Shown here one piece after another: positions 14,066 to 25,502 of a DNA stretch of 64,000 bases (within the stretch, counting starts at the first letter, position 1; every line of letters starts with the position of its first letter). The stretch covers positions 62,001 to 126,000 of the forward strand of contig JAABRO010000061.1 of assembly GCA_011390885.1 (NCBI GenBank). Direction: 5' to 3'. The position numbers and the translations under genes were made by a program. Source of the stretch: Gemmatimonas sp. GTDB taxonomy: Bacteria > Gemmatimonadota > Gemmatimonadetes > Gemmatimonadales > Gemmatimonadaceae. A model generated the notes under the pieces. That model searched no databases. It worked only from the letters and a program-made list of their open reading frames with translations, and had not been told where the DNA came from.

Positions 14066-14446
14066 TCAGTCGCCGCGGTAGGTCACCCGGAAGCCGCCCG
14101 TCTCGGAGACCTCCACGGCGACGAGCTGCGGCACGCGCTCGCGCACGGCGCGCCAGATCCAGATCGCGAGCGACTCGCTGGTAGGGTTGAGCAGGCCGGG
14201 CACGTCGTTGAGCACGCGATGGTCGAGCGCGCCGTGCACCGGTGCCCAGGCGTCTGCCAGGTCGGCGAAGTCGAGCACCCAGCCCGTGTCCGGATCGACG
14301 GGCCCGCGCACGGTGAGTCGGACCCCGAAAGTGTGGCCGTGCATGCGGCCGCAGGGGTGGCTCTCGGCGACGGACGGCAACCAGCGCGCGCTCGCGAGCG
14401 CGAAGTCGGCGGAGAGCTCCGCCGTGGGCGCGCCGGGATCGGTCAG
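14066..14446 (-). CDS. queD: 6-carboxytetrahydropterin synthase QueD-like, non-AUG start
   Basis: A 126-residue T-fold enzyme of the queuosine/7-deazaguanine pathway, converting dihydroneopterin triphosphate to 6-carboxytetrahydropterin. It matches E. coli QueD well: PCGRMHGHTFGVRL (catalytic Cys plus two zinc His), DPDTGWVLDFADL, LDHRVLNDVPGLLNPTSE and VEVSETGG. The N-terminal strand, needed for the fold, begins only if translation starts at CTG 14446, which overlaps the upstream TGA as CTGA. The next start-like codon (TTG 14380) would remove that strand, and no ATG, GTG or TTG lies in frame upstream. The family's first zinc ligand (AAHRLP) is Arg here (SARWLP). queE-queC are 10 kb away. Confidence 0.82.
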   Translation of the reverse strand: MTDPGAPTAELSADFALASARWLPSVAESHPCGRMHGHTFGVRLTVRGPVDPDTGWVLDFADLADAWAPVHGALDHRVLNDVPGLLNPTSESLAIWIWRAVRERVPQLVAVEVSETGGFRVTYRGD

Positions 14447-15219
14447 CGCCGGCCGGGCGAGGCGGCGCTGGAGTCGCCGCCGGTGACGCCGAGCGAGTCG
14501 AGGAAGGCGAACATGCTGTCGTAGCGCGCGGCCACGAGGTCACCATCCACGAGGCGGCGCACGCCCTTCCACTCCCGGACCAGCGACGACGACTTCACGT
14601 CGAGCGAGCTCTCGATCACGCGCCGCTTGCTGGTGCTGGCGTGAATGAAGCGTCCCTCGCCGATGTACATGCCGATGTGCGTGATGCGGCTGCCCTTCCC
14701 GAAGGTGAGCAGGTCGCCGGGCTTCATCTGGCTGCGATCCTTGGGGATCTCACGACCGACGCGCGCCTGCTCCTGCGCGGTGCGCGGGAGCGAGATGTCG
14801 AAGGCGGACACGATGTGTCGGATGAGCGCGCTGCAGTCGAGGCCGCGCAGCGGGTTGTTGCCGCCGAGCAGGTACTTGATGCCGATGGACTGCTGCGCGC
14901 GCGCGACCATGGAGTCGCGCAGCGCCCCCACGGACGCCGAGAGCGCGGCGAAGGCCCGGGGACGGGCCGCGTCGACGGCGAGTCGCGGCGCGGCGGCGCC
15001 GCTGGTTTCGGCCGCTTCCGCACGCGACGCAGCGCTCGCGGCGTTGCCCGACGAAGAAGCACCCATCTGCGCCTGCACGGGGGTCGCGGCCACGAAGGCG
15101 GCGACCATGGCGGTCAGGGCGAAACGAATCGGTCGCTGGCGTGCTGGGGAGGGCACGTCGAGGCGGCGGGTGACAGGGCGGAAACGAGCGGCGAGGACGG
15201 CACGACACCGTCCCGCCAT
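14443..15219 (-). CDS. NlpC/P60 peptidoglycan endopeptidase
   Basis: An exported cell-wall hydrolase of about 258 residues. A long Arg-rich leader and signal segment (ALTAMVAAFVAATPVQAQ) and an Ala/Ser-rich linker precede an NlpC/P60 domain with catalytic Cys in GLDCSALIRH, His in ITHIGMYIG and the third polar residue in FIHAST. It should cleave D-gamma-glutamyl-diamino acid bonds in peptidoglycan stems. The start is uncertain: ATG 15219 is taken because TAGGTT sits 15-20 bases upstream; GTG 15231 or 15156 are alternatives. Its stop overlaps the CTG start of queD, so the two are co-translated. Confidence 0.85.
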   Translation of the reverse strand: MAGRCRAVLAARFRPVTRRLDVPSPARQRPIRFALTAMVAAFVAATPVQAQMGASSSGNAASAASRAEAAETSGAAAPRLAVDAARPRAFAALSASVGALRDSMVARAQQSIGIKYLLGGNNPLRGLDCSALIRHIVSAFDISLPRTAQEQARVGREIPKDRSQMKPGDLLTFGKGSRITHIGMYIGEGRFIHASTSKRRVIESSLDVKSSSLVREWKGVRRLVDGDLVAARYDSMFAFLDSLGVTGGDSSAASPGRR

Positions 15220-15234
15220 CGGCGACCCCACAAC

Positions 15235-24153: not shown

Positions 24154-24798
24154 TCAGCGCACCCCGATGTCCTTGTGCGTCTGCACGCTGAGCCGCCACT
24201 GCGGGTGCGCCAGGCAGTACGCGATCGCCGCGGCCGTGTTTGCCGCACGATCGGGGCCGTCCATGGGCTGCAGCAGGAAGTGGTCGAACGCCATCTGCGC
24301 GAAGCGCGCCGGGTCCCCCTCGGCCTCGGCCTGCGGATACACGAGCTTGAGTTCGCTGCCGCGCGTCTGCACGAGCGTGGCGCGTGCCTTGGGGCTCACA
24401 CAGAGCCAGTCGATCCCCTCGGGCGCGGCGATCGTGCCGTTGCTCTCCACCGCGATCTCGAATCCGACCGCGTGCAGCGCGTCGATGGCCGCGCGGTCGA
24501 GCTGCAGCAGCGGCTCGCCACCGGTGCACACCACGAACGGCCGCACCTGCGGCGGCGAGTCGGCCGGCCAGCGCGCCTTCACGGCAGCGGCCAGCTCCTC
24601 GGCGGTGGCGAACTTGCCGCCGTCCGGACCCACGCCCACGAAGTCGGTGTCGCAGAAGCGGCAGGTGGCGGTTGCCCGGTCGGCCTCGCGCCCCGTCCAC
24701 AGGTTGCAGCCGGCAAAGCGGCAGAACACGGCCGGTCGGCCCGCGTTCACGCCCTCCCCCTGCAGCGTGTAGAAGATCTCCTTCACCGTGTAGGTCAC
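24154..24798 (-). CDS. queE: 7-carboxy-7-deazaguanine synthase
   Basis: A 214-residue radical SAM enzyme that ring-contracts 6-carboxytetrahydropterin to 7-carboxy-7-deazaguanine. It starts [19 protein letters not shown], the family N-terminus. The iron-sulphur ligands follow the CX14CX2C spacing (GCNLW...ATCRFC) described for the Burkholderia type. [13 protein letters not shown] is the SAM-binding GGE motif, and VESNGT and VSPKA follow in order. GTG 24798 overlaps the queC stop as GTGA, so queC-queE are co-translated. Its substrate would come from queD at 14066. Confidence 0.93.
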
Positions 24799-25502
24799 GC
24801 GCGCTCCGCGTACGTGATCGGATCGCGCGCGCCCGCTTCGGCAAAGCCCTTCAGGCGCAGCAGGCACGCGTCGCAGCGGCCGCAGGCATCGCCGTTGGGC
24901 GCCGGATCGTAGCAGCTCGTGGTCAGCGAGTAGTCCACACCGAGTGATTGCCCGAGCGCCACGATGCCGGCCTTGGTGAGGTGCAGCAGCGGCGCGTGGA
25001 TGGTGAGGCGCTGCGTGCCTTCCACGCCCGCGCGCGTGCCGAGGTTGGCCATCGTCTCGAAGGCGCGCAGGTACTCCGGGCGGCAGTCGGGATAGCCCGA
25101 GTAGTCGAGCGCGTTCACGCCCACGAAGATGTCCGTGGCGCCGAGCGTCTCCGCCCACGCGAGCGCGAACGAGAGGAAGATCGTGTTGCGCGCGGGCACG
25201 TAGGTGACCGGGATGTCGTGCGCCGCACTCACGTCGCGGTCCTTGGGCACGGCCACGTCGCTCGTGAGTGCCGAGCCGCCCCACTGGCGCAGGTCGATGT
25301 CCACGACCACGTGCTGCGACACGCCCTGCGCGGCGGCCACGCGGTGCGCGGCGTCGATCTCGTGCAGGTGCCGCTGGCCATAGCGGAACGTCATGGCGTG
25401 CGGCGCGAACCCCTGGCTGCGCGCCACGGCGAGCACGGTGGTGGAGTCGAGGCCGCCGCTGAGCAGGACGACGGCGGGACGTGGAGTGGACGGCTGCGTC
25501 AT
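24795..25502 (-). CDS. queC: 7-cyano-7-deazaguanine synthase
   Basis: A 235-residue ATP-dependent enzyme making preQ0 from 7-carboxy-7-deazaguanine and ammonia. The PP-loop is [17 protein letters not shown] at residue ~11. [17 protein letters not shown] and [19 protein letters not shown] are family blocks, and the zinc site is [21 protein letters not shown] (four Cys). The ATG at 25502 has TAGCTT six bases upstream and no ribosome site, so it is probably leaderless. First gene of queC-queE. Confidence 0.94.

Follow-up and report, generated by a model that had tools for sequence, protein, structure and literature searches.

The zinc ligands of QueD and related PTPS enzymes are regarded as indispensable, and a queD-like gene on a 64,000-nucleotide stretch of DNA from Gemmatimonas sp. 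(the window, taken as the whole stretch) raises the question of what becomes of such an enzyme when the first of these ligands is an arginine. The features that bear on this question are:

14066..14446, minus strand: QueD-like protein of 126 aa (COG0720, PTPS-I motif CGRMHGH) with Arg21 replacing the zinc ligand His16, from translation, PDB alignment and an AlphaFold (AF2) model
14384..14386, minus strand: CGC codon for the Arg of the first zinc-ligand position, from the frame translation and codon comparison
14444..14446, minus strand: proposed CTG start codon of queD, overlapping the stop of the upstream NlpC/P60 gene as CTGA (14443-14446)
14443..15231, minus strand: NlpC/P60 peptidase gene, upstream of the window queD
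24154..24798, minus strand: queE, intact (TIGR04508, 346.5 bits against a cut-off of 240)
24795..25502, minus strand: queC, intact (TIGR00364, 204.6 bits against a cut-off of 150.3)

The minus-strand frame with its end at 14066 translates as LTDPGAPTAELSADFALASARWLPSVAESHPCGRMHGHTF...VSETGGFRVTYRGD. An initial annotation of the window had described queE and queC as intact, and both do score above the curated cut-offs, at a distance of approximately 10 kb from queD.

The best solved relatives of the window protein are structures of E. coli QueD (4ntm, E 5.8e-37; 3qn0/3qn9, 8.1e-37), and in the PDB alignment, which is gap-free across the region, Arg21 lies opposite E. coli His16. That the first zinc His is an Arg, as initially proposed, is confirmed by this alignment and by 22 of 22 proteins of the clade described below; a misalignment hiding a His is ruled out by the lack of gaps. 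In E. coli QueD, His16, His31 and His33 are taken here to be the zinc binders, and Cys27, Asp70-His71 and Glu110 (E. coli numbering) are presumed to be the catalytic residues. The window protein retains Cys27, His31, His33, Asp70, His71 and Glu110, giving a complete catalytic set and a zinc site with Arg at 16 and His at 31 and 33. No new His or Cys is present clade-wide among the 22 Arg proteins (Cys8 occurs in 13 of 22 only). His25 could move in as a ligand, but its invariance in the Arg and His groups alike gives no sign from conservation that it has become one. The AF2 monomer model of the window protein (pLDDT 96.2, pTM 0.89) has the predicted fold of QueD, matching the E. coli protein with TM 0.92/0.96 at 0.9-1.3 A.

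By the motif definitions in PMC5041015, CxxxHGH is the signature of QueD (PTPS-I). The window protein carries it as CGRMHGH, and lacks both the PTPS-II motif CxxxxxHGH and the PTPS-III motif ExxHGH, with Gly at the Glu position of the latter. One of the 22 Arg proteins (L048, genome G214) reads CERVHGH, a hybrid PTPS-I/III signature. The window protein passes the Pfam PTPS model (102.3 against a cut-off of 22.4) and scores 86.4 bits with TIGR03367, the curated QueD equivalog, just below the cut-off of 89.25; because of this shortfall of about 3 bits and the incomplete His triad, it is filed, on sequence grounds, as a variant of QueD and not as a canonical member. The likeness to QueD, or 6-carboxytetrahydropterin (CPH4) synthase (PTPS-I, COG0720; E. 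coli 4ntm, 3qn9 and 3qna), extends to the fold, CxxxHGH, the catalytic Cys, Asp-His and Glu, two of the three zinc His and, in the relatives of the window protein, the queC-queE neighbourhood, whereas Arg stands for the first zinc His and Glu13, Cys112 and Cys116 are replaced. QueD2, the Zur-regulated second QueD on which Jordan et al. 2022 reportedly worked, is a relative of QueD for which a change in metal use has been discussed, but the A. baumannii protein (7v0f) is only a distant structural match to the window protein model. In Zur-linked QueD paralogues the zinc-binding residues are reported as conserved in PMC2770081 (see also PMC9508795). PTPS-II enzymes (CxxxxxHGH, tetrahydrobiopterin synthesis) belong to the same superfamily and share their motif with two paralogues in the window genome, A and B, whereas the window protein has CxxxHGH and the short QueDs lie apart from A and B on the tree. 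A search of titles and abstract starts in one open library returned no report of an Arg-bearing QueD.

The N-terminus that carries the Arg depends on the choice of start codon. The window frame contains no ATG, GTG or TTG ahead of the motif, and the first of these codons, TTG at 14380, comes after the Arg, so the coordinates of the window gene imply the CTG start. The identical CTGA overlap occurs in G175, G176 and G177, while in G178 an ATG lies close to this point. CTG is the only apparent plausible queD start in four of the five species of the window genus, with an in-frame TTG and GTG also present just downstream of the CTGA in G177. Gene callers restricted to ATG, GTG and TTG would begin the window gene at TTG 14380 and lose the strand that bears the Arg.

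A search of 179 genomes of the family with an Arg-type N-terminus as query matched 78; position 16 was read in all of these and also in the carriers G104 and G158. The alignment with phylum QueD homologues, a check put forward in the initial annotation, returned Arg in 22 of these 80 genomes with a short-type QueD and His in 58, and outside the family His in 23 of 23 carriers at E 1e-20 or better (from a sample of 395 phylum genomes). The Arg genomes are all five sampled of the window genus (g1), ten of g11, five of g9, G197 and G199. Beyond the phylum, the sample consisted of viral contigs and two stray records from other phyla (L035 and L036, both His); 80 viral loci were kept of 186 relatives, and the 79 readable ones comprised 78 with His and one with Arg (62 and one, respectively, among 63 distinct sequences). 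When 59 short QueDs are placed on a tree, all 22 Arg proteins group with the His-bearing G149 protein in one clade (support 100/97); the Arg is a trait of this clade and not an error. The G149 protein (L054/L080) retains His16 together with Ala13, Pro26, Thr34, Gly112 and Val116; given its place within the clade, the Arg label needs two changes on the tree, and a gain with reversion in G149 and two gains of Arg fit equally.

Only at position 16 does each group have a single fixed residue that differs from that of the other, and the Arg is written with five codons across the 22 genomes (CGC 11, CGG 7, CGA 2, CGT 1 and AGA 1). Invariant positions in the Arg group number 32 of 116 and include Cys27, His31, Gly32, His33, Asp70, His71 and Glu110, for which the chance of all seven being invariant is ~7e-5 under a random-placement model that ignores shared ancestry and family-wide conservation. 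What had been read from the window alone, that the catalytic Cys, the HGH pair and the C-terminal Glu are kept, extends in this way to 22 of 22 proteins. Glu13, Cys112 and Cys116, found in 35, 28 and 34 of the 37 His-group proteins, are Ala, Gly and Val in all 22 Arg proteins, and despite these changes the remaining two zinc His show no drift. Median pairwise dN/dS in the Arg genera (0.112 in g11, 0.169 in g9 and 0.167 in g1) lies within the range of 0.062-0.178 set by three His genera (0.062, 0.178 and 0.155), values that are rough, as pairwise Nei-Gojobori estimates with a mean pS of 0.52-0.65 in the Arg genera are near saturation. Judged from the five codons, the invariant remainder of the active site and a dN/dS of ~0.11-0.17, the Arg-type gene (queD-R, encoding QueD-R) is maintained under purifying selection.

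The genomic position of queD-R gives an indication of its origin. In 15 of the 22 Arg genomes, queC lies 0.7-0.9 kb upstream on the same strand and contig, with room for queE between, which is the queC/queE neighbourhood of QueD (the queC match is split or partial in two of the 15, G208 and G214). The two genes are 3-19 kb apart on the same contig in G000, G175, G177 and G178, and on different contigs in G176, G199 and G210. In G050, queC, queE (both identified by curated model) and queD-R overlap by 4 nt and 1 nt, and in genus g9 a relative of the window NlpC/P60 gene directly follows queD. A His-type QueD occupies the same slot in G149 and in five of the 13 other His genomes examined (G024, G080, G084, G108 and G112), so QueD-R most likely descended in place from the QueD of the operon. 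At G208:C24:41320-41954 the queC match consists of two adjacent pieces in separate frames, possibly a frameshift.

The initial annotation had further reasoned that, with queE and queC intact, the pathway is expected to work; the premise that it must then run through the window protein is left unsupported by the gene content of the family. Matches to queC and queA were found in 51 of 51 genomes tested (the queC match of G088 is weak, E 5.8e-4), and a QueF match over the cut-off in 47, though in several genomes this hit is weak and belongs only to a related gene close to folE. Short QueD is absent from 15 of the 51, and none of the 51 is without a further COG0720 protein. The other COG0720 proteins placed on the tree comprise the groups A and B, which lie apart from the short QueDs, and two very divergent proteins (in G024 and G084); 28 sequences of A and B were checked, and all have the three His. 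The divergent proteins (L153 and L155) read CExLHGH. A second QueD with three His, had one existed, might have explained the pathway in the window genome; two further three-His COG0720 proteins are indeed present there, but both have CxxxxxHGH in place of the QueD motif, and a second copy of CxxxHGH was not found in that genome. In g9, the genus of five Arg genomes, G116, G138 and G139 have an operon of queC-queE-NlpC/P60 from which queD is gone, and relatives in g9 without the operon queD still carry queC, queE, queF and queA. The presence of paralogues throughout and of pathway genes in these congeners means that the pathway argument is no proof that QueD-R makes CPH4. In the same three genomes, which lack queD, paralogue B (L145, L146 and L147) has lost the catalytic Asp and/or His, and G141 has an A protein only, which points to A as the putative source of CPH4 where queD is absent. 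A is not universal, as G024, with a His-type QueD, has no A copy among its three COG0720 matches, and is not simply tied to the use of BH4, as BH4-dependent hydroxylases occur in only 9 of 23 genomes tested. It is plausible that the CPH4 step is covered by a folE-linked paralogue whose zinc triad is complete. At L001 1261-3279 a PTPS-II-motif gene, a folE-like gene and a short-chain dehydrogenase-like gene stand in a row that resembles a tetrahydrobiopterin cluster (named by eye), and a Biopterin_H hydroxylase is encoded elsewhere in the same genome.

Two options had been offered for the window protein at the outset, that zinc is held differently or that the reaction has changed, and these remain a fair pair given the missing His and an otherwise intact site conserved over 22 species; the premise that went with them, of a pathway that must pass through this protein, is not supported. 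The favoured reading, itself evenly poised between right and wrong, is that QueD-R still acts as a CPH4 synthase, through a remodelled two-His/Arg site; it is favoured on account of the otherwise intact active site, in which both remaining metal His are present. QueD-R would then be a clade-specific form of QueD, derived in a single bacterial family from the usual QueD of a queC-queE-queD operon, in which the first zinc ligand was lost and arginine became fixed alongside Ala13, Thr34, Gly112 and Val116. For its activity, metal content and use of the Arg we infer the following: the protein would still form CPH4 for preQ0, and either His31 and His33 would retain the metal or the Arg16 guanidinium would supply part of the positive charge of zinc for enolate intermediates. 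Counting against a CPH4 synthase, other COG0720 proteins may carry out the step, relatives in g9 have lost the gene but not queC, queE, queF and queA, and the window protein scores just under the curated QueD cut-off. PMC7546909 reports, moreover, that the metal of a P. falciparum relative is bound by three His and that mutants of active-site residues, metal-binding His included, lose all or most activity, which speaks against an active QueD-R.

A changed reaction is possible, if on the unlikely side. A folE-linked paralogue would make the first product from dihydroneopterin triphosphate and QueD-R would be specialised, for instance in cleaving the side chain of 6-pyruvoyltetrahydropterin to CPH4, or in acting on another pterin. 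The concerted fixed changes at positions 13, 16, 34, 112 and 116 are consistent with this, as are the retained catalytic Cys, His, Asp and Glu and the link to the operon, and a possibly redundant paralogue would leave QueD-R free to change; however, no pathway gene or metabolite indicates another substrate, and the protein of G149, with His16 in the same slot and the same companion changes, suggests little change of task. It is unlikely that QueD-R is a zinc-free COG0720 enzyme in which the fixed Arg guanidinium takes the role of the metal and His31 and His33 serve as acid/base or substrate ligands. If so, it would be a natural zinc-sparing QueD whose own ligand set has changed, unlike the Zur-linked paralogues, in which the zinc residues are reported as conserved. 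Improbable, too, is a non-catalytic QueD-R that serves QueE/QueC as a partner, by binding pterin or in a structural or regulatory role, or that does so in mixed hexamers with a paralogue; the lost zinc ligand, the dispensability of the gene in congeners and the overlap with queE in G050 would suit such a part, but the catalytic residues tested are all invariant in 22 of 22 proteins, which would be unexpected in a dead enzyme. That the gene is a decaying redundant copy, with the losses of the ligand and of the ATG as steps to a pseudogene, is very doubtful: an apparent CTG start stands in place of ATG in the window genus, the paralogues may make the gene redundant and many relatives lack it, yet the frame is open in 22 species and a pseudogene is disfavoured by the dN/dS of 0.11-0.17 (rough, being near saturation) and by an Arg held with five codons. 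A sequencing or assembly artefact has a negligible chance, for although most of the assemblies are drafts in many contigs, the Arg is common to 22 separate genomes, and independent ones with proteins 48-75% identical to that of the window all show it, which rules out sequencing error.

The Arg lineage amounts to a natural experiment on the part of the metal in QueD chemistry, with G149 as a close comparison that bears the His. Were QueD-R active without zinc, it would provide a metal-sparing step in queuosine synthesis; were it inactive, it would show that a place in the queD slot of the operon does not by itself make a protein a CPH4 synthase, and that the step can fall to a paralogue encoded outside the operon. 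The one viral Arg belongs to a queD-like gene at L279 1019-1357 (plus strand; IMG/VR 3300048502_000088), in a record in which queC was not found, and its Arg16, encoded by CGC, apparently arose independently of the family clade. The His members of the L279 group have Asp13, Thr34, Val112 and Val116 in common.
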